The notes under the pieces were generated by a model. The model was not told the DNA's origin. It did not search any database and saw only the letters and a list, made by a program, of their open reading frames with translations. Made by a program: the position numbers and the translations under genes. A stretch of DNA of 64,000 bases from Bradyrhizobiaceae bacterium PARB1 (GTDB taxonomy: Bacteria > Pseudomonadota > Alphaproteobacteria > Rhizobiales > Xanthobacteraceae): positions 575,876 to 639,875 of the forward strand of contig NKIY01000004.1 of NCBI GenBank assembly GCA_002256345.1. The letters run 5' to 3'. Below, piece by piece: positions 54,738-64,000 of this stretch (position 1 is its first letter; each line of letters opens with the position of its first letter).

Positions 54738-54813
54738 GCCGCAATAGCTCAGTTGGTAGAGCACGTCATTCGTAATGACGGGGTCACAGGTTCGAGTCCT
54801 GTTTGCGGCACCA
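54738..54813 (+). tRNA. tRNA-Thr (anticodon CGT)
   Basis: The 76-base cloverleaf has acceptor GCCGCAA with TTGCGGC, a D-arm (GCTCAGTTGGTAGAGC), an anticodon arm CGTCATTCGTAATGACG with CGT in the loop, a T-arm (ACAGGTTCGAGTCCTGT) and an encoded CCA. Confidence 0.98.
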
Positions 54814-55017
54814 TCTAACAAACTGATTTCCGGCTACAATTTCTCAACGGTGTTTGTTCCGCCCTGCTTGTTGCCAGCGGGCCGATCCAACGACGTCCTG
54901 TTCGCACCGCGCTTTGGCAGGGTCTTGGTGAGCGGCGAAAGCACTACAATCGCTACCCAAGCTTCTACGTCTCTATGGCAGCGCTGGCGCAAAGCGGAAA
55001 TTCCATCGGTGGAACAT
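54814..55017. other. Gene-free stretch between tRNA-Thr and the LysR gene
   Basis: This is about 200 bases with no supported gene, att duplication or integrase. Open frames here read across from the LysR gene antisense. Confidence 0.55.
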
Positions 55018-55968
55018 CTATCGGCCGAGGTCGGCATAGTCCGGCGACATCGCGAGCGACGGGTCTCTGCCACGAAGTTGCTCCGAGACGATGGATCGCA
55101 ACCAGCGGACCGCCGGATCATTTTCCATCCGGCGATGCCAGAACTGCTTCAGCTCGATGAGCGGGATATCGACAGGTGGCTGCAGCAATTTCAGTCCGCT
55201 GTCCGCGTACCACGCGCCGAGTGAGAGCGGCACGGTGGCGATCATGTCGCTGTTGGCGATCATCTGCGGCACGCTCATGAAATGCGGAAGATGCAGCAGC
55301 ACGCGGCGATCCAGTTTGAGCTCCCGGACCCGGCGTTCGAAGATCTCCTGGCTCCGGCCATCCTGATTGACCACCAGATGGTCAGCCGCAAGAAATTGCT
55401 CCAGCGACAATGTATCGCCGATGGTCGAGTGATTCTTGCGCGCGATGCAGACGAAGGGATGATCGAACAGGCTCTCCGCCACGATGCCGGCGCCTGTCAA
55501 ATCCGGGAAGTAGCCGATCGCGAGGTCGATATCGCCGCGATCCAGCGAAGCTTCCAGCTGATCATGTGCAGAGGTGACGCAGCGCATGCTTGCTCTTGGC
55601 GCGAGCGCGCGGAGCCGTGCGAGCAAAGGCGGCACAAAGATCATCTCGCCGATGTCGGACGTCGTGATCGTGAAGACACGCTCGGTATCGCTCGGGCGGA
55701 ATGCCGGCGTGCGCAGGATGTCGCGGGAGATCATCGTGAGCACGGCTTTCACGGGCTCGGCGATCGACTCCGCGAAGGGCGTCGGGCGCATGCCGCGGCC
55801 CGTCGAAAGAAATAACTGATCGTCGAAATATGTTCGCAGGTGACGAAGATTGGCGCTGGCCATCGGCTGGCTCATGCCGAGACGGCGCGCCACCGCCGAC
55901 AGGTTTTGCTCGCGATAGAGCCCGTCGAACAGCAGCAACAGGTTGAGATCCAGCTTCCTGATATCCAT
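55018..55968 (-). CDS. LysR-family transcriptional regulator (NodD/NahR-like)
   Basis: The 316-residue protein has an N-terminal winged helix (MDIRKLDLNLLLLFDGLYREQNLSAVARRLGMSQPMASANLRHLR, the HTH at about 20-45) and a LysR effector domain ending at residue 316. The DLNLLLLFD start with the RRLGMSQPMASANL recognition helix is that of regulators responding to aromatic compounds or flavonoids (NodD, NahR, LinR group). It diverges from purU-demethylase-folD-transporter with a 210-base gap, so it very probably controls that operon; the inducer is unknown. The start at 55968 is chosen over a longer frame. Confidence 0.9.
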   Translation of the reverse strand: MDIRKLDLNLLLLFDGLYREQNLSAVARRLGMSQPMASANLRHLRTYFDDQLFLSTGRGMRPTPFAESIAEPVKAVLTMISRDILRTPAFRPSDTERVFTITTSDIGEMIFVPPLLARLRALAPRASMRCVTSAHDQLEASLDRGDIDLAIGYFPDLTGAGIVAESLFDHPFVCIARKNHSTIGDTLSLEQFLAADHLVVNQDGRSQEIFERRVRELKLDRRVLLHLPHFMSVPQMIANSDMIATVPLSLGAWYADSGLKLLQPPVDIPLIELKQFWHRRMENDPAVRWLRSIVSEQLRGRDPSLAMSPDYADLGR

Positions 55969-56081
55969 CAGGCTGATATCTCGTATTTCATATAAGCGGA
56001 TTGTCAATACCTGACACCCGAACGATCTTCCCGGCCAAGCAAGAGCAATCGAGCCGCCAAGGTGGCATGGGAGGAGACGGC
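55969..56081. promoter_or_regulatory. Divergent control region for LysR and the demethylation operon
   Basis: It includes an AT-rich patch with the inverted element ATATC...ATAT (GATATCTCGTATTTCATAT at 55975-55993), a plausible LysR T-N11-A-type target close to the LysR start. No operator is proven. Confidence 0.45.
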
Positions 56082-56168
56082 ATGATCTCGCAACGCAGAG
56101 CCGGCACCACGCCGATATGCGCCACCTGCACCGGCCCGGTTCGTCATCTCGCGAAACGTCACGCCTGA
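56082..56168 (+). CDS. Putative 28-residue leader peptide upstream of purU
   Basis: [20 protein letters not shown]... is preceded by a very strong ribosome-binding site (GGGAGGAGACGGC) and stops (TGA, 56166-56168) 10 bases before the purU start. It contains a CxxC (ICATC). It has no recognised homolog. It could be a translated leader that couples translation to purU, or chance. Confidence 0.4.
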
Positions 56169-56178
56169 GGACAGATCC

Positions 56179-57048
56179 TTGTCGACCGTCTCACCTTCCG
56201 AAACCTATGTTCTTTCGCTCGTCTGCGACGACAGGCCCGGTATCGTCGCGGATGTCACCAGATGTCTGTTCGACGACGGCGCGAGCATCGTCGAGGCCGA
56301 GCAATTCAACGATGCCGGCAACGACCGCTTCTTCATGCGCGTGGCCGTCAGTGCTCCGGCGGCGCGGTTGCCGGCGCTCCGGTCGGCCTTCGCACCGGTC
56401 GGCGAGAAGTTCGGCATGACGTGGTGGCTGCGCTCCAGGGCCGAGCGCAAGAAGGTGCTGTTGCTCGTCTCCAAATCGGATCATTGCCTCGGCGATCTGC
56501 TCTACCGGCACCGCCTCGGCGAACTGAACATGGACGTCGTCGGGATCGTATCGAACCATCCGCGTTCCGCGCTCAGCGTCAGCCTCATTGGTGATATTCC
56601 GTATCATCATTTGCCGGTCACGCGTGAGACCAAGCCGCCGCAGGAAGCACGCATCAAGGCGATCGTCGAAGAGACCGGCGCCGACCTCGTTGTACTCGCG
56701 CGCTACATGCAAATCCTGTCCGACGACTTCGCGAACTATCTGTCCGGACGCTGCATCAACATCCATCACAGCTTTCTGCCGGGCTTCAAGGGAGCGAGGC
56801 CCTATCACCAGGCGCATGCGCGCGGCGTCAAGCTGATCGGCGCAACCGCGCATTTCGTCACCGGCGATCTCGATGAAGGTCCGATCATTGCGCAAGACGT
56901 CGAACGCGTCAGCCATCGCGATACGCCGGACGATCTCATCCGCAAGGGGCGCGACATCGAGCGGCGCGTGCTGTCGCGTGCGGTCCTGCTGTTTCTTGAA
57001 GATCGCACCATCATCAACGGTGAACGCACCGTCATTTTCGCCGACTGA
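56179..57048 (+). CDS. purU: Formyltetrahydrofolate deformylase
   Basis: The 289-residue enzyme hydrolyses 10-formyl-THF to formate and THF. An N-terminal ACT domain ([34 protein letters not shown]) is followed by the formyltransferase-type catalytic domain. Catalytic residues are visible in [48 protein letters not shown] (Asn-His and Asp). The start is a TTG at 56179 with GAGGA eight bases upstream. The gene leads an operon with a LigM/DesA-type demethylase (18 bases), folD and a transporter. Confidence 0.93.
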
Positions 57049-57066
57049 CCAAGAGAGACGAGTCCG

Positions 57067-58344
57067 ATGCTACCTGCAAACCTGCGAAAAGTTCCCGAAG
57101 GCTATTTCACATCCCGCTGGGGCCAGCCCGAATATACCGACTGGATCGACGAAACCATGTCGTGGAAGCAGACCTGCTCGATCGGCGACTGGACCTTCCT
57201 GTGGGAACGCCGTTTCAAGGGGCCCGATGCGCTCAAGCTGTTCAGCGATACGTCGGGCAGCAGCTTCACCAAGTTCGACATCCTGCAGTCGAAGCACGTC
57301 ACGCACACGACATCGAAGGGCAAGGTGATCGCGGAGGGCATCCTGACGCGTCTCTCCGAAGATGAGTTCATGTTGTTCGGGCGAGGTACCTTCTGGGTCG
57401 ACTATGTTCGCCGTCACGGCAACTACGACGTCACCTCCGAAACCGATGACTGGTTCAACTATCAGGTCGCCGGCCCGACCTCGCTCGCTTTGCTCGAGAA
57501 GCTTGCGGGCAAGTCGATGCGCGACATCAAGTTCATGCATTCGGGCGAGATCGAGTTTGCCGGCTGCAAGATGCTGGCGTTGCGCCAGGGCATGTCCGGT
57601 GAAGTCGGGTTCGAGTTGCAGGGACCGGTCGATAAGGCCGCACAGGTCTATGACGCCATCGTTGCCGCCGGCGGCGAATTCGGGCTGCGTCGTCTCGGCG
57701 GCCGCGCGATCTTCATCAACCATCTGGAAGCATGCTTCCCGACGATCGTCACCGATTACATGCCGGCGATTTTCGACGACGAGATGAAGGGCTACCTCGC
57801 CGAGTTCAGGGCCGCGATGCCGGCCTTCGCCTCGACCTTTAACGTGGCAGGCAGTTTCGAAGCCGATGACATCAGCGCGTGGTATCGCAGCCCGGTCGAG
57901 CTCGGCTGGGGACGCAACATCAAGTTCGATCACGACTTCATCGGACGCGCCGCGCTGGAAGAGGAAGTCGCCAATCCGCGGCGCCTGATGCGCACACTGG
58001 TCTGGAACGGCAAGGACGTCGCCGATGTCTACGCTTCGCTCTTCAGCAAGGACGAGACGCCTTACCAGTTCATGGAAATGCCGCGCGATCAGCGCGGATT
58101 CATGTATGCCGACCGGGTGATTCACGAGGGCAAGGACGTCGGCGTCGCGACATCCCGCGGCTACAGCTATCACTTCCGGGAGATGCTCTCGCTCTGCACC
58201 ATCGACGTTGCCCAGGCCGAGATCGGCACCGAGGTCAGCGTGATCTGGGGCAATCCCGGTGGACGGCAGAAGGAGATCCGCGCCGTCGTGGCCCCGGCTC
58301 CCTACAAGCCCGACAACCGGCGCGCCGACCTGTCCAAGATCTGA
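57067..58344 (+). CDS. Tetrahydrofolate-dependent demethylase/aminomethyltransferase of the LigM/DesA (GcvT) superfamily
   Basis: The 425-residue protein has the GcvT fold. Its closest recognisable relatives are THF-dependent aryl O-demethylases of the LigM (vanillate) and DesA (syringate) type, with shared features such as SPVELGWGRNIKFDHDFIGRAALEEE, VWNGKDVADVYASLF and the C-terminal SRGYSYHFREMLSLCTIDVAQAEIGTEVSVIWG. It is shorter than LigM (about 470 residues), and the tyrosines important in LigM do not align obviously, so the methyl donor may differ; glycine cleavage and dimethylsulfoniopropionate demethylation are alternatives. Neighbours (purU, folD, AAHS-type transporter) supply downstream C1 oxidation and uptake. 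The ATG at 57067 is used. Confidence 0.85.
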   Translation: MLPANLRKVPEGYFTSRWGQPEYTDWIDETMSWKQTCSIGDWTFLWERRFKGPDALKLFSDTSGSSFTKFDILQSKHVTHTTSKGKVIAEGILTRLSEDEFMLFGRGTFWVDYVRRHGNYDVTSETDDWFNYQVAGPTSLALLEKLAGKSMRDIKFMHSGEIEFAGCKMLALRQGMSGEVGFELQGPVDKAAQVYDAIVAAGGEFGLRRLGGRAIFINHLEACFPTIVTDYMPAIFDDEMKGYLAEFRAAMPAFASTFNVAGSFEADDISAWYRSPVELGWGRNIKFDHDFIGRAALEEEVANPRRLMRTLVWNGKDVADVYASLFSKDETPYQFMEMPRDQRGFMYADRVIHEGKDVGVATSRGYSYHFREMLSLCTIDVAQAEIGTEVSVIWGNPGGRQKEIRAVVAPAPYKPDNRRADLSKI

Positions 58345-58359
58345 TCGGGAGGGGCGGCG

Positions 58360-59337
58360 GTGACGGCACGTATCATCGACGGCAATGCGATCGCCGCCCA
58401 GGTTCGTCACGAGGTTGCGACGGGCGTGACGGCCCTCCTTGCAGCGGGTGTCGACCGGCCGGGACTGGCTGTGGTGCTGGTCGGAGACGATCCGGCCAGC
58501 CACGTCTATGTCGCGAACAAGGTGCGTCAGACCGAAGCGGTCGGGATGCGATCGTTCCGTCACGACCTGCCGGCCGCGGTCAGCGAGCGGGATCTGCTGG
58601 ATCTGATCGCGCGCCTGAACGCCGACGATGCCGTCCATGGCATCCTCGTCCAATTCCCGTTGCCGGCGCACATCGATACCCGCCGCGTTGTGGCGGCGAT
58701 CGATCCTGACAAGGATGTCGATGGTTTCAATCCGCTGAATGTCGGCCGGGTCGCGTCCGGGATCATGGATGTGCTGACGCCGTGTACGCCTCTCGGCGTC
58801 ATGCGGCTGATCAGGTCCGTCCATGACGACATCGCCGGATTGGGTGCGCTTGTCGTCGGGGCATCCAACGTCGTCGGGCGGCCGATGGCGCGATTGCTTC
58901 TGGAGGCGCAGTGCACGGTCTCGATCGCGCATGTTCGCACCACCGATCTGGCGGCGCGCTGCAGACAGGCGGACATCCTGGTCGTCGCCACGGGCGTGCC
59001 GGGCCTGATCCGTGGCGCCGACATCAAGCCGGGCGCGACCGTGATCGATGTCGGCATCACCCGCACGGAGCAGCCTTCCGGCAAGAGCCGGCTGGTCGGC
59101 GACGTCCGCTTTGAGGAAGCCGTCGAGGTCGCCGGCGCCATCACGCCGGTACCGGGCGGGGTGGGTCCGATGACAATCGCATGCCTGCTCGCAAATACCT
59201 TGAGTGCCGCGCGCGCGGCGGCGGCCATGGCGATGGAGCGGCGGGTCCATGAAGACGTGCCGGACGCAACTTTGCCCGGCAGGGCTCGGGCGGATGTCAG
59301 CGGCGGGCGAAGTTCAACAACAACGATCTCGATCTAG
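58360..59337 (+). CDS. folD: Methylenetetrahydrofolate dehydrogenase/cyclohydrolase
   Basis: The 325-residue bifunctional enzyme converts 5,10-methylene-THF to 10-formyl-THF. Motifs are [24 protein letters not shown] with catalytic K54, [47 protein letters not shown] (NADP loop) and [19 protein letters not shown]-terminal extension of about 35 residues after [10 protein letters not shown] is longer than in housekeeping FolD. A GTG at 58360 is preceded by GGGAGGGGCGGCG. It is likely a dedicated paralog for the demethylase (inference). Confidence 0.93.
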
Positions 59338-59371
59338 GTCGCAAACGTAAAAATCAAAAGGGGGAAAAGAC

Positions 59372-60733
59372 ATGAACATCGAAGCGATATCAGCAAGTAC
59401 GCGGCCAACCATCGACATCGGCGCATTGGTCGATGACGGCGCATGGACCGGCTCTCGCAAGCTGGTCCTGCTGCTTGCGGCGTTGGCCATTGTGCTCGAC
59501 GGCCTCGATAATCAGGTTCTCGGTTTTGCGATCCCGTCGATGATCGCCGAGTGGAAGGTGGCGCGCAGTGACTTCGCCTCCGCGCTGGCGTTGGGCTTTG
59601 TCGGGATGACCATCGGAACACCCATCGGCGGCGTGCTCGGTGACCGGATCGGGCGCAAGATGACTCTCATTATATGCGTCTTGCTGTTCGGCCTCGCGAC
59701 TGCGGCGATCGCGACGGCAAGTGGCGTCTTCGAGGTCGCGCTTTACCGCTTCATCGCCGGGCTGGGACTGGGTGGCGCACTGCCCGCGGCCATGGCGCTG
59801 ATTGCGGAATTCACACCCAAACCCAAGCGAAGCCTGTCGGTCCTGCTCGGAATCGTCTGCATCCCGATCGGTGGCATGATCGGCGGCGTCATCGCCGCGG
59901 AGATCCTGCCGTCCTATGGCTGGCGGCTCCTCTTCCTTGTCAGCGGTCTCGCGCCGATGGTCGTCGCGTTGATCCTGATTGCCGCATTGCCGGAATCGCC
60001 ACAGCATCTCCTCAATAGCGGCGCGAGTTCCGAGAAGCTGATCCGCTCCGTCTCGTGGCTGGGGGTAACGGTGCCTCCGGGCAGCGAATTCGTGGACCGG
60101 CGCGACAGCGGCATTGCGCGTGCGTCGGTCGGAGCGCTGTTCACCAGCGAATTCCGGCGCAGCACCCTGGCGATGTGGATCGCGTTCTTCTTCTGCCTGT
60201 TGCCGGTCTATGTCCTCTATGCCTGGACGCCGACGCTGCTGACCGGCAAGGGCATCGACGTCAAGACCGCGAGCTTTGGCCTGGCACTGTTTAACTTCGG
60301 CGGTGTCGCTGGTTGCCTTGTTGCGGCCTGGGCGATCGGCAGGTTCGGATCGCGTCTTGGAATTCTCACCATGGCGGGCGGCGCCGTGCTCGGTGCGGTG
60401 TTCCTCGCCGTCATGCCGCTATCACCGGCGACCGAAACCCTGTTGCAGGTCGTGCTATGCGTCGAGGGATTCTTTCTGCTCGGAGCGCAGGGTTCGCTCT
60501 ATGCACTTGCAACGCATGTCTACCCGGCCGTCATCCGATCGACGGGCCTCGGCGCTGCAGCAGGCTTTGGTCGGGCCGGTGCGATCGTCAGCGCCTATGT
60601 CGGATCGGCAGCACTGGCCGTTGGCTCAGGAGCATTCTTCGGTGTGGTGGTGGGTTGCCTGGTCATCACCTTCGTCGCGGTGGCGATCGTGAACATCCAC
60701 GCAGCCACGTTGAGTTCGATGGCGAAACCATGA
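59372..60733 (+). CDS. MFS transporter, aromatic-acid:H+ symporter (AAHS)-like
   Basis: The 453-residue transporter has about 12 membrane helices. The first helix carries DGLDNQVLGFAIP (D43-G44-L45-D46), the AAHS/PcaK hallmark, and the loop GGVLGDRIGRKMTLI (D91). Substrates of the family are 4-hydroxybenzoate, protocatechuate, vanillate and similar acids. The last gene of the purU operon (34-base gap), it likely imports the substrate of the demethylase. ATG 59372 follows AGGGGGAAAAG. Confidence 0.88.
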   Translation: MNIEAISASTRPTIDIGALVDDGAWTGSRKLVLLLAALAIVLDGLDNQVLGFAIPSMIAEWKVARSDFASALALGFVGMTIGTPIGGVLGDRIGRKMTLIICVLLFGLATAAIATASGVFEVALYRFIAGLGLGGALPAAMALIAEFTPKPKRSLSVLLGIVCIPIGGMIGGVIAAEILPSYGWRLLFLVSGLAPMVVALILIAALPESPQHLLNSGASSEKLIRSVSWLGVTVPPGSEFVDRRDSGIARASVGALFTSEFRRSTLAMWIAFFFCLLPVYVLYAWTPTLLTGKGIDVKTASFGLALFNFGGVAGCLVAAWAIGRFGSRLGILTMAGGAVLGAVFLAVMPLSPATETLLQVVLCVEGFFLLGAQGSLYALATHVYPAVIRSTGLGAAAGFGRAGAIVSAYVGSAALAVGSGAFFGVVVGCLVITFVAVAIVNIHAATLSSMAKP

Positions 60734-60754
60734 TGCCGATGGAGGGCACTATAG

Positions 60755-60779
60755 GTCGCCGGGATGCAAGCCCGGCGAC
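60755..60779. terminator. Hairpin after the transporter gene
   Basis: GTCGCCGGG (60755-60763) pairs with CCCGGCGAC (60771-60779) across ATGCAAG. It lies 21 bases past the MFS stop and before the convergent gene at 60822. It has no T-run. Confidence 0.65.
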
Positions 60780-60821
60780 AGCGGCTTGCCGCGTGCGCGA
60801 TAGCGCTGCCCGCCGTTGTGG

Positions 60822-61622
60822 TCAGTCGGTCCTGCGAATGACACCAATCGCGTTCGGAAACAGGTAGTCGTCGTTTCCGTAAAGATTGTCTTTTGTCCTC
60901 AAGCCAGCAGTGTCCTGACCGGTCAGCCGGATTGCGTTCGAGCAGCCGACCTCCGGCTTGGTTAAAGTCGCTGTCAGAGTCGGGATATCGATCTTATCGG
61001 TAATACCGAGAAGCAATTGCTGCTTTGAATCGATGCAGATGAACATCTGCTCCTGAACAGATGCTGCAAGCTTCAAGTAGCCACTCGATTTGTGACTTGG
61101 GAGCTCGGAAGGCACCTTGCCATTCTGCAGCAACAGCGGTCCCGCCTGAACGCAATCGCGGAACTCGGAGGAAACCGAGGAAGACTTGGCGAGAGCAATC
61201 GTGGCCTTGCCCTGATCCGAGCAGAAAATCGCTTCGGTCAACCAGCTATTGTGTTCGGAGCCGAGCATGACACCGCCCGACTTCACCAATCCAAGCGAAG
61301 ATGGTGGCGAATAGCTGTCGATGTAACCTCCCGAACCAACGGCATGGGCTCCGAAGCGAGTCATATATTCTTGCAGATATACACCGCGTACGGCCCGTTC
61401 GGGATTGCCGCTCACGCGCCGCGCAGATCCGTCAGTGTTGAAAGTCACGAGCGGACTGAGAATCCGGACATCGTAGAGTTGGAGCGAAACGCGGACAAAG
61501 TGAAGCCGCTTGTTATCGGCCATCTGGATGTGACGGAGATTCAAGCTGTCCTGTCCTTGTGCCGAAACGAGTCCGGCCAGACAGAACAGAGAGGCGAGGG
61601 TTACCGTGGCCACCTTTTTCAT
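60822..61622 (-). CDS. Exported NAGPA/DUF2233-like phosphodiester glycosidase family protein
   Basis: The 266-residue protein has a signal peptide (MKKVATVTLASLFCLAGLVSA) and the hallmark motifs of the phosphodiester glycosidase family (NAGPA/YigE type): GSGGYIDSYSPPSSLGLV (96-113; usually NGGFFD...GLV) and QAGPLLL (159-165). Members remove sugars from phosphodiester or polymer linkages; the substrate is unknown. Codon use is AT-richer than the surrounding genes. It overlaps the preceding gene's stop by one base (TAATG). Confidence 0.72.
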   Translation of the reverse strand: MKKVATVTLASLFCLAGLVSAQGQDSLNLRHIQMADNKRLHFVRVSLQLYDVRILSPLVTFNTDGSARRVSGNPERAVRGVYLQEYMTRFGAHAVGSGGYIDSYSPPSSLGLVKSGGVMLGSEHNSWLTEAIFCSDQGKATIALAKSSSVSSEFRDCVQAGPLLLQNGKVPSELPSHKSSGYLKLAASVQEQMFICIDSKQQLLLGITDKIDIPTLTATLTKPEVGCSNAIRLTGQDTAGLRTKDNLYGNDDYLFPNAIGVIRRTD

Positions 61623-62287
61623 TACGGGACCAGTTTTATCGTGGGAGTTATCATGACGACGTAACTGATCTCGATCTCCGCTGATTGGCCGAGCTGGGCT
61701 GAATTCGAAGCAGAGTCGGAGTGTGCCGCTGGATCTGTATCTGAGCCTTCGAGCTGGAATGTTATCGGGCGCAAACCAGTCTGCAGTTTTCGGGTGGGCG
61801 AGTCGTCGAATACGTCATGCAGGAGCGCGGCTTGCCCGGTAGGGGGCTGGAAGTATTTTTCCAGAACAATCGCGCCTTCTTCCAGTTTCAGGGGAATCGG
61901 CTTCGAGTTAGGCGCAGCGAGCACGACATATCGCTTCTTCGGAACGATATCCCCTTTGAGGGTGTAGATGATCTTGCCCTTATAGCCTTCCGGAAAATAC
62001 ACATAGAGCGTGAATGATCGATTGGAGGCATTGAGAAGAAAACTCCCGACCGTCAACGCGCCAACGTCGGATTGTCTAATATTGGTCAACGCTGCCTTGA
62101 GTGCAGTAGGGAGCTCTCCGTTGTCCTTGACGAGGTTGTCCGCCGTTGTCTTGACGATATAGGCCTGAACGCGCTCCTCAATGCTGGACCAGGCTAAAGC
62201 GAGTGCAGCTGTAACAGCGGCTATCAAGCCACCATTGAGCAGCTTCTTGCCGTGCTCCGCGAGCAACGATTTCAACTGTTCGTACAT
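61622..62287 (-). CDS. Hypothetical membrane-anchored protein coupled to the NAGPA-like gene
   Basis: I do not recognise a family for this 221-residue protein. It has an N-terminal membrane segment (about 18-34, NGGLIAAVTAALALAW) followed by about 185 residues that would be periplasmic, beta-rich and likely Ig-like or lectin-like. Translational coupling to the glycosidase-like gene (TAATG) implies a shared pathway. Base composition is lower in G+C than the flanks, consistent with acquisition. Confidence 0.7.
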   Translation of the reverse strand: MYEQLKSLLAEHGKKLLNGGLIAAVTAALALAWSSIEERVQAYIVKTTADNLVKDNGELPTALKAALTNIRQSDVGALTVGSFLLNASNRSFTLYVYFPEGYKGKIIYTLKGDIVPKKRYVVLAAPNSKPIPLKLEEGAIVLEKYFQPPTGQAALLHDVFDDSPTRKLQTGLRPITFQLEGSDTDPAAHSDSASNSAQLGQSAEIEISYVVMITPTIKLVP

Positions 62288-62491
62288 TGAAGACGACCGA
62301 AGGGATTGAGAGATGCGCTTTCAACCTTAGGGTGGTATTGGTCGTCAATTCTCCAGCAGGACGCAAGACTTTTCTAACGGCGGCGGCCCCGCCGCATGCG
62401 GGCGTTCGTCGGGATGGAGGGCATCGTCACCCTCGCCTTTGGCCTTATGGAGGCGTTCCGGCAGCCGAACATTTCGGCCTCCGGACTCCGG

Positions 62492-63268
62492 CTATTTGAC
62501 CCAGTTCGGCTGGCGCTTCTCGACAAAAGCGCAGAGACCTTCCTGGGCTGCGTCGGTCACCGCCACATTGACGAAATCCTCGACGGCATTGGCGATGCTG
62601 CGGCGATAGTCCAGGTCGATCTGCCGCATGAATGCAGCTCGCCCCATCCGGAGCACCGTTTCGGATTTCGCGGCGAAGGTTGCCGCCATCGCCATGGCTG
62701 CGGCGTCGAGATCGGCGTCCGCCACCACGCGGGTGACGATGCCGAGATCGCAAGCCTCGCGGGCATCGAAGGTGCGGCCGGTGAACAGCAGCTCGAATGC
62801 ACGGTGTCGGCCGATGATGCGCGGCAGATGGGCGAAATGGATCGCCGGCAGCACGCCCACATCGATCTCAGGATATCCGAATGTCGCGCTTTCGGCGGCG
62901 AGAACCACGTCGCAGGACACGGCCATCGTCATGCCGCCGCCGCGGGCCGCGCCACTTACGGCCGCGATCGATGGCTTTCCGAGATTGTACTGCGCATCAT
63001 ACAGGTTGATGTAGAGCTCTTGCAGAAACTTGCGGATTTCTTCCCCGGGCTTGCCGAGCAGGATGTCGAGATCGAGGCCGGCGGAGAAGCGGCGGGCGAT
63101 CGTGCTCGACAGAACGACGGCCCGCGCCGTCCTGTCGTCGGCCGCCTGTCTGAAGGCAGTCACCACGGCGCGGATCAGTTCGAGACTCAACGCATTGACG
63201 GGCGGACGATTCAGCGAGATCCGTGCGACTGTATCGGTGACTTCGTAGCGAACGATTGGCTCGGGCAT
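62492..63268 (-). CDS. Enoyl-CoA hydratase/isomerase family protein
   Basis: The 258-residue crotonase-fold protein starts MPEPIVRYEVTDTVARISLNRPPVNALS and contains FSAGLDLDILLG and GAARGGGMTMAVSCDVVLAAESATFGYPEIDVGVLP. Of the two catalytic glutamates of a hydratase, the first (in GGGCEL) is replaced (GGGMTM), while the second (YPEID) is present. It is more likely an isomerase, hydrolase or other crotonase-type enzyme than a true hydratase. ATG 63268 is used. It follows the Bug-type gene at a 37-base gap in the same direction. Confidence 0.88.
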   Translation of the reverse strand: MPEPIVRYEVTDTVARISLNRPPVNALSLELIRAVVTAFRQAADDRTARAVVLSSTIARRFSAGLDLDILLGKPGEEIRKFLQELYINLYDAQYNLGKPSIAAVSGAARGGGMTMAVSCDVVLAAESATFGYPEIDVGVLPAIHFAHLPRIIGRHRAFELLFTGRTFDAREACDLGIVTRVVADADLDAAAMAMAATFAAKSETVLRMGRAAFMRQIDLDYRRSIANAVEDFVNVAVTDAAQEGLCAFVEKRQPNWVK

Positions 63269-63305
63269 CGGCGTCCTGTCCTTCAGATGCGTTGTGATTT
63301 GTCGT

Positions 63306-64000
63306 TTAGAGCGGCTTCAGGCCGATGTCCTGGGCCACGCGGGTCCAGCGCTCGCTTTCGCGCGCCACGAAGTCCTTCAGTTGCTCCTTCGGCACGATCA
63401 GACGTTCGGCCCCGCGCTGGGTCAACGCGTCAGCGAACGCCTGTTGGGATGCGGTCTGCTGGAAGGCGGCCTGCAGTCGCTCGATCGTTGCCGCCGGTGT
63501 CGCCGTCGGCACCTGGACAGAGAACCAGAAGTTGAGATCGAAGCCGGAGAAACCGATTTCCTTCATGGTCGGAATGTCCGGCAGTTGCGGCACCCGGCCG
63601 GGTGAGGTGACGGCGAGGCCGCGCACGGTGCCGGATTTGATCTGTTCGGCGCTGGTGGTGATGCTGTCGAAAAGAATATCGACGCGGCCGCCCACGACTT
63701 CGGTCAAAGCCGGAGCACTGCCGCGAAACGGAACGGGAAGAGCCTCGATGCCCGTCAGCTTCTGAAACAGCGCGCCGAGAATATGCGGCGACGAGCCGGA
63801 GCCGAAGGTCGCATAAGTGAGTCCGCCCTTTTTCTTCTTCGCATAGTCGACGAGCTCGGCCACGGATTTCACGTCGGTATATTGCGGATTGACGATCAGG
63901 ACGTTCGGCAGCGATGCCGTCGTCGCGATGGTCTGGAAATCCTTCATCGGATTGTAGTTGTTGGATGGATACAGGATCGGATTGACGCCGAGCATCGCCA
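63306..64000 (-). CDS. Bug/TctC-type tripartite tricarboxylate transporter substrate-binding protein (5' end cut off)
   Basis: Only the C-terminal about 231 residues are present; the gene runs off the right edge. Visible sequence includes YPSNNYNPMKDFQTIATTASLPNVLIVNP, FGSGSSPHILGALFQKLTGIEALPVPFRGSAPALTEVVGGRVDILFDSITT and a C-terminal IPKEQLKDFVARESERW. This is the Bug family of periplasmic binding proteins for carboxylates, abundant in soil Proteobacteria. The membrane components are not in the window. Confidence 0.9.
   Translation of the reverse strand, partial: AMLGVNPILYPSNNYNPMKDFQTIATTASLPNVLIVNPQYTDVKSVAELVDYAKKKKGGLTYATFGSGSSPHILGALFQKLTGIEALPVPFRGSAPALTEVVGGRVDILFDSITTSAEQIKSGTVRGLAVTSPGRVPQLPDIPTMKEIGFSGFDLNFWFSVQVPTATPAATIERLQAAFQQTASQQAFADALTQRGAERLIVPKEQLKDFVARESERWTRVAQDIGLKPL

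Follow-up and report, generated by a model that had tools for sequence, protein, structure and literature searches.

A mobile lysR-purU-X-folD operon in Bradyrhizobiaceae bacterium PARB1 encodes a LigM relative that may be a tetrahydrofolate-dependent demethylenase

At positions 55018 to 60733 of the 64,000-nucleotide stretch of contig NKIY01000004.1 analysed here (the window, whose numbering we use throughout, with insert coordinates beyond 64000 continuing along the same contig), Bradyrhizobiaceae bacterium PARB1 carries a divergent lysR gene followed on the plus strand by purU, a gene for a GcvT/LigM-superfamily protein that we call X, folD and a gene for a major facilitator superfamily (MFS) carrier (Table 1). 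A previous interpretation made from the letters alone (the sequence-only reading) had placed these five open reading frames (ORFs) with gaps of 18, 15 and 34 bases between the plus-strand genes, and both the ORF list and family scans agree with it; X was there taken for a LigM/DesA-like demethylase acting on an imported methoxylated aromatic acid. We consider it fairly probable that X is instead a tetrahydrofolate (THF)-dependent methylene transferase, or demethylenase, in an operon that would open the methylenedioxy ring of an aromatic acid.

Layout and conservation of the operon

The gene names proposed earlier largely held, with PurU and FolD scoring above their model cut-offs and X carrying a GCV_T domain, but the carrier stays under the cut-off of TIGR00895, the model for AAHS carriers, although that model is its best NCBIfam match, and it is here called AAHS-like. 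The regulator is likewise present and divergent as described, but its start was probably misplaced at TTG 56007, which would lengthen the protein by 13 amino acids; the ATG whose complement ends at 55968 is preferred, giving 316 amino acids as in the counterpart from Mesorhizobium kowhaii (locus L004), to which the protein is 92% identical. Its best NCBIfam model is BsrA (216 bits, under the cut-off of 480). The region between lysR and purU, a candidate regulatory region, holds stretches kept in the three relatives aligned (window, L004 and L005), GATTGTCAATACC among them.

From lysR into folD (55018-59232, 4.2 kb), the block is kept in Mesorhizobium kowhaii at 82% DNA identity, with ratios of nonsynonymous to synonymous substitution (dN/dS) of 0.046 for lysR, 0.109 for purU, 0.040 for X and 0.086 for the first 280 codons of folD, and X is its most conserved protein (94%). 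Because it is conserved over 4.2 kb with such low dN/dS, the lysR-purU-X-folD arrangement is, by this comparison, a selected unit beyond what chance would leave. Homology of folD stops at 59232, the C-terminal tail not being shared, and no AAHS-like carrier was found in 17 kb of Mesorhizobium kowhaii, so that the carrier lies outside the conserved block. In that genome the folD frame continues, as seen by eye, into a GAF/PAS/histidine-kinase-like stretch (L004 9294-11588), and this junction, where the conserved block ends, resembles a point of recombination. A Tardiphaga metagenome-assembled genome also has lysR-purU-X, on a contig that ends within X and whose sequence upstream of lysR is unlike the window; the same contig is present in genome G008, of the same genus as the window's genome, which makes a Tardiphaga the probable host of the window.

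Table 1. Features of the operon and of the insert that carries it (window positions)
Feature	Position	Strand	Details
tRNA-Thr(cgt), left border of insert	54738..54813	+	
Insert of about 11.7 kb, in-window part	54814..64000		extends to about 66522; missing in same-genus genome G013
LysR-type regulator, 316 amino acids from ATG (preferred start)	55018..55968	-	HTH_1 and LysR_substrate domains
Divergent intergenic region, candidate regulatory	55969..56178		alignment of window, L004 and L005
purU, 10-formyl-THF deformylase, TTG start	56179..57048	+	TIGR00655, 330 bits vs cut-off 286
X, GcvT/LigM-superfamily enzyme, 425 amino acids	57067..58344	+	GCV_T domain, 121 bits
folD, methylene-THF dehydrogenase / methenyl-THF cyclohydrolase	58360..59337	+	NF010785, 424 bits vs cut-off 396
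AAHS-like MFS carrier	59372..60733	+	TIGR00895, 296 bits vs cut-off 419
NAGPA-domain protein, on insert	60822..61622	-	PF09992, 33.8 bits
Enoyl-CoA hydratase-family protein, on insert	62492..63268	-	PF00378, 193 bits

X among LigM-type enzymes and demethylenases

By profile score X is a relative of LigM and DesA, not a member, reaching 286 bits against the LigM model (cut-off 580) and 284 bits against the DesA model (cut-off 800; NF047885 / NF047633), where seven of eight LigM-type rows scanned as a control reached one cut-off or the other (L080 reaches neither). Its nearest solved relative by sequence is LigM (E 1e-65), which also comes first in a Foldseek search (E 4e-31, TM-score about 0.56) made with a modest structure model of X (mean predicted local distance difference test score, pLDDT, 65.7, from 6 sequences). 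Phylogenetically, we compared 49 rows: 14 of clade A, the clade of X; seven of clade B; 24 LigM-type rows, LigM included (clade C); and four GcvT-like rows. The tree excludes the truncated rows L005, L013 and L072, the identical copies from Sphingobium (L006-L008), duplicates of loci that had been retrieved twice, and additional LigM-type rows. The 24 LigM-type rows form one clade (support 99/97) and A plus B, leaving aside L078, another (91/99), placing X outside the LigM/DesA clade in this tree; clade B is not a single clade, and the position of L078 is unsure. An approximately unbiased test rejected a grouping of A with C to the exclusion of B (p 0.007), a grouping picked after the tree had been seen. 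The LigM/DesA identity given to X in the sequence-only reading is thus not borne out, X lying outside the LigM clade, under both model cut-offs and lacking the LigM tyrosine. Nor does X group with glycine-cleavage GcvT or the sarcosine and dimethylglycine enzymes, the outcome which that reading had named as fatal to itself: a 100/99 branch parts it from the four GcvT-like rows, which carry a long-branch warning, and it falls below every cut-off of the GcvT, sarcosine, dimethylglycine and dimethylsulfoniopropionate enzyme models.

Functionally, the comparison turns on active-site residues. Three LigM residues matter here, which we take to be Tyr247, a number that agrees with the numbering in our alignment of X with LigM, His60 and R122, the last with a substrate-carboxylate role. 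In LigM the tyrosine passes a proton to the substrate oxygen while the methyl group moves to N5 of THF (PMC5656898), and its catalytic role in LigM-type demethylases is also covered in PMC9296663. X has Ile215 at the tyrosine position, and all 14 clade-A rows have Ala, Ile, Lys, Ser, Thr or Val there; in a wider set of 64 rows with at least 350 aligned columns, most duplicates removed (the window counted twice and one row off-family), tyrosine stands in 40/40 LigM-like and 4/24 window-like rows. Clade A has nothing equivalent to His60, which 24/24 LigM-type rows keep. Four residues past the tyrosine position X has H219, and histidine is found there in 14/14 rows of clade A and 6/7 of clade B, in 0/24 LigM-type and 0/4 GcvT-like rows; in the wider set the same position is His in 22 of the 24 window-like rows and none of the 40 LigM-like ones.

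For the sesamin demethylenase SesA, R81, H82, R100, R179 and H225 are expected proton donors and D95, E189 and Y221 predicted THF contacts, and the BrdA enzymes, which use THF to open berberine's methylenedioxy ring, keep all of these donors but R81 and all keep E189, with D95 and Y221 varying (PMC5547118). Going by the published numbers and spacing, SesA R81/H82/D95/R100/R179/E189/Y221/H225 correspond to K76/H77/E90/R95/R173/E183/I215/H219 of X, and the spacing is the same within blocks (13 and 5 for H82-D95-R100; 10, 32 and 4 for R179-E189-Y221-H225). All four donors (H82, R100, R179 and H225) occur together in 13/14 clade-A and 6/7 clade-B rows and in no LigM-type (0/24) or GcvT-like (0/4) row, and LigM-type rows have the D95 and Y221 positions fixed in 24/24 and never a histidine at H225. 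As judged from these alignments, the pattern of variation reported for demethylenases is that of clades A and B, not of LigM-type rows. L088 and L089, which of the rows sampled come closest to the complete SesA pattern, lie in the same A plus B clade as X; both are on plasmids, of Psychrobacter (L088 2139-3482) and Deinococcus (L089 4905-6275), where the X relative with K-H-D-R-R-E-Y-H adjoins an SMR efflux gene and a TetR regulator.

The earlier description of X as a short protein with an altered pocket stands, given its 425 amino acids and its changed tyrosine and His60 positions. It lacks the C-terminal stretch that LigM-type rows carry, and its length is near that of BrdA (429-463 amino acids), as against 466-475 for Dmt-type demethylases (PMC9404685). 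The dicamba demethylases Dmt, Dmt50 and Dmt06 were dropped as an identity for X on this difference in length and on a motif: primer dF1, designed on a region conserved in known demethylases (PMC9404685), translates to an LFDQSHHM-type motif that X does not have. Among the LigM-type genes, a haloarchaeal plasmid (L083 4917-7860) holds two adjacent ones, both with the tyrosine, near genes for an adenylate-forming enzyme and a branched-chain-type ABC transporter.

One-carbon chemistry, substrate and rival reactions

Removal of a methyl group yields 5-methyl-THF, on which MetF must work ahead of FolD and PurU, and removal of a methylene bridge yields 5,10-methylene-THF, directly a substrate of FolD; SesA reportedly gives the latter. 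We counted neighbours within 5 kb of each gene, using the 14 of 24 LigM-type rows with longer flanks, at loci drawn from top hits and not at random; flanks are incomplete for L069, L070, L009, L071, L011, L088, L074, L083 and L034, and L067, L083 and L076 give two rows each. The effective MetF queries were two annotated MetF proteins (L085 and L080, each 100% on its own locus), the third query being a MetH-like ORF. A metF gene lies near 0/14 clade-A, 1/7 clade-B and 6/14 LigM-type genes (A plus B vs C, Fisher p 0.0099, uncorrected for kinship and for an idea drawn from the same data). In the sole clade-B case, L034, a LigM-type gene stands directly before metF, and the same metF is counted once in B and once in C. 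Near clade-A genes, purU is found in 8/14 and folD in 6/14 cases, and for both genes the difference between A plus B and C is not significant (p 0.16 and 0.25). Side by side in a Rhodococcus opacus plasmid (L080 2258-10113) run a Mur-ligase-family gene, pabB, a LigM-type gene, metF, purU, folD and genes annotated as protocatechuate and class III extradiol dioxygenases; in genome G1074 (L067 7185-12837), a pair of clade-A genes that share 50% and 70% identity with X face opposite directions within 6 kb and enclose purU, what by eye is a GntR-type gene, and folD.

The sequence-only reading had rightly noted that MetF is absent from the cluster, and the genome's single metF lies on another contig; it had taken MetF for the missing step, which a methylene-bridge removal would not need. 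The cluster without metF is better read as a clue, holding just what a methylene donor needs. Since the genome has one further PurU over cut-off and two further FolD genes, the cluster copies are extras. What had been proposed more broadly, that a LigM-superfamily enzyme carries out a THF-dependent C1 transfer and that FolD and PurU take the C1 unit on to formate, is supported.

Because the LigM tyrosine is gone, the demethylenase residues are present, X falls outside the LigM/DesA clade and no metF lies near the 14 clade-A genes, we give the demethylenase reading a probability of roughly 0.6. In such an operon the carrier would import an aromatic acid with a methylenedioxy ring, for example piperonylate (3,4-methylenedioxybenzoate), and X would shift the bridging CH2 to THF, leaving a catechol (protocatechuate in the case of piperonylate) and 5,10-methylene-THF; FolD would convert the latter to 10-formyl-THF, from which PurU would release formate and free THF, the THF returning to X. 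Protocatechuate dioxygenases, whose genes lie in other parts of the genome, would take over the catechol, and the LysR protein presumably senses substrate or product. The window's genome has two protocatechuate dioxygenase beta genes that pass the cut-off; taken with the AAHS-like carrier, they make conversion of piperonylate to protocatechuate the simplest candidate, but the preference for it over other methylenedioxy compounds is weak, at odds clearly below even. The carrier had seemed the key evidence on substrate, a role weakened by its having no counterpart found in the 17 kb of Mesorhizobium kowhaii. Of the import and demethylation of an aromatic acid proposed earlier, the aromatic substrate is probable and the methoxy demethylation probably the wrong reaction, with a carrier that is no part of the conserved block.

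Some loci of relatives hold aromatic-catabolism genes. Two contigs of Sphingobium lactosutens (L009 and L006) carry a phenol 2-monooxygenase-family enzyme, two Rieske oxygenases and an FAA hydrolase, and L067 has a flavin adenine dinucleotide (FAD)-dependent aromatic-ring hydroxylase and benzoylformate decarboxylase within 12 kb. Folate-supply genes also occur near X relatives (pabB in L009; chorismate-binding and Pterin_bind genes in L077), and the neighbours at clade-A loci L069, L070 and L035 include nothing telling.

A number of points weigh against a demethylenase. None of these neighbours proves a methylenedioxy substrate, and neither purU nor folD lies within 5 kb of 6/14 clade-A genes, some with cut flanks. 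The match to SesA and BrdA relies on residue numbers and spacing as published, in place of a direct alignment, and the donor roles in SesA are themselves predictions by the authors of PMC5547118. Arginine at R100 and histidine at H82 also occur in 5/24 and 2/24 LigM-type rows, which leaves H219 as the main discriminator, and residues 211-236, H219 among them, score under 50 in the structure model, so that this histidine cannot be placed. Exceptions exist within the clades, one clade-A row (L067, 7188-8627) having R for H82 and L078 lacking both R100 and H225. In local alignment X shares 35% identity with LigM, above the 26.7% reported for BrdA by another method. Finally, the single metF of the genome could still serve a demethylase.

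That last point belongs to the most serious rival, in which X would be a divergent O-demethylase of a methoxylated aromatic acid, its 5-methyl-THF passing through a MetF from elsewhere, such as that on the other contig, before FolD and PurU yield formate. Shared superfamily, LigM as the best solved relative by both sequence and fold, the presence of an AAHS-like carrier and the pairing of R106 of X with LigM R122 in the sequence alignment all suit it, although MAFFT leaves that loop open and the alignment there is uncertain; the lost tyrosine and His60 positions, a clade outside LigM/DesA, the demethylenase residue pattern and the lack of metF near any of the 14 clade-A genes make it unlikely. 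Should X, like BrdA and SesA, be a demethylenase whose substrate is a large lignan or alkaloid, the carrier would serve another compound; variation at the D95 and Y221 positions like that described in BrdA, TonB receptor genes adjoining other relatives (annotated in L033, by eye in L006) and the restriction of MFS genes 28-30% like the window carrier to the surroundings of L011, L067 and L068 would fit, but the window carrier follows folD by 34 bases and is most like aromatic-acid carriers, and two protocatechuate dioxygenase genes are available, which renders this improbable. X might also take a methyl or other C1 group from a donor whose leaving group is better, for instance a sulfonium or a trigonelline-type N-methyl pyridinium acid. 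Such a donor could do without a tyrosine acid, in keeping with the lost tyrosine and with molybdenum hydroxylase genes near L032 and L072. However, the molybdenum subunit of L032 (Rhizobium lusitanum) has its best match, below cut-off, in the aldehyde oxidoreductase PaoC, a methyl transfer would once more require a MetF that is not found near clade-A genes, and the His and Arg pattern is the published demethylenase one; we regard such a donor as very improbable. A demethylenase opening the ring of an aromatic acid remains the reading we prefer.

Mobility, known systems and significance

Genomically, the operon sits on an insert bordered on the left by the tRNA-Thr gene. In genome G013 the tRNA-Thr region matches and is followed after 81 bases by sequence equal to that of the window's genome from 66523 onwards; G011, G002, G012 and G016 have about 1.3 to 5.8 kb at this site, unlike the window insert, and no right flank turned up in the 17 kb examined from G006, making the insertion site visible in 5/6 genomes. 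No integrase was seen among the insert ORFs inspected by eye, part of which were scanned, and the longest exact repeat of the tRNA-Thr end found downstream is 10 bases; in Mesorhizobium kowhaii, integrase and insertion sequence (IS) transposase genes lie upstream of the cluster. On these comparisons the cluster is mobile. A second gene group on the insert (window 60822-64000 and L073 1-3350) has minus-strand genes for an enoyl-CoA hydratase, a TctC-type binding protein and a CoA-transferase III, diverging from an IclR regulator, and the insert also carries, in a lower-GC stretch (0.55-0.58), the NAGPA-domain gene and a gene of no assigned family.

Relatives of X are patchily distributed. At E 1e-60 the superfamily was matched in 29/391 genomes of the family sample, that of the window included, eight of these (that of the window and seven others) with a match of at least 55% identity, and in 5/349 genomes of the phylum sample at the same limit; at 1e-70 the order and class samples gave 2/397 and 1/385 genomes, that of the window included. 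A Streptomyces and a Rhizobium plasmid carry relatives at 61-70% identity and a Sphingobium one at 66%; no relative was found in the viral contigs scanned.

The kind of enzyme is already known, and the result is a supported reassignment within a known superfamily. SesA and BrdA are GcvT-like and THF-dependent, and H82, R100, R179, H225 and E189 match X at their published positions; what sets X apart is a Glu at the D95 position and an Ile at Y221, and their substrates are lignans and an alkaloid. The accessible part of PMC5547118 describes no operon of lysR-purU-X-folD-carrier composition. PipA of Rhodococcus ruber, a methylenetransferase more specific for piperonylic acid on the route to protocatechuate (PMC12753220), offers a precedent for the proposed reaction: its methylenedioxyphenyl acid substrate would suit an aromatic-acid carrier, but it is encoded within a piperine cluster of 48 genes in an actinomycete, strain No. 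14, and is compared with X through its description. LigM, DesA and Dmt-type O-demethylases have superfamily and fold in common with X and some of their loci hold purU and folD, but LigM-type rows keep the tyrosine, His60 and C-terminal stretch missing in X, and metF lies near 6/14 of them. The FolD-PurU branch of C1 catabolism has both its enzymes here, unlike elsewhere as extra copies packed around X, without MetF. In the literature searched, with subscription papers mostly outside, we found no description of an operon of lysR, purU, an X-type enzyme, folD and an AAHS-like carrier.

Methylenedioxy rings stabilize many plant defence compounds, lignans, piperine and berberine among them, and few bacterial enzymes that open these rings are described in the literature consulted. 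We tentatively posit, at rather less than even odds, that clade A forms a separate subfamily of THF methylene transferases that moves horizontally and differs from SesA at D95 and Y221. Its members would open the methylenedioxy rings of aromatic acids in bacteria related to rhizobia, in sphingomonads and in actinomycetes, and their operons would lack metF since the C1 unit leaves as methylene-THF. The short list of substrates makes the question directly testable. If our reading is right, a plant-associated group would hold a compact operon joining regulator, enzyme, C1 disposal and probable carrier; a simple rule of residues and neighbourhood could part demethylenases from demethylases now annotated alike, the presence or absence of metF beside a LigM-like gene would predict the oxidation state of the carbon removed, and many proteins annotated as aminomethyltransferases or vanillate demethylases would be demethylenases.

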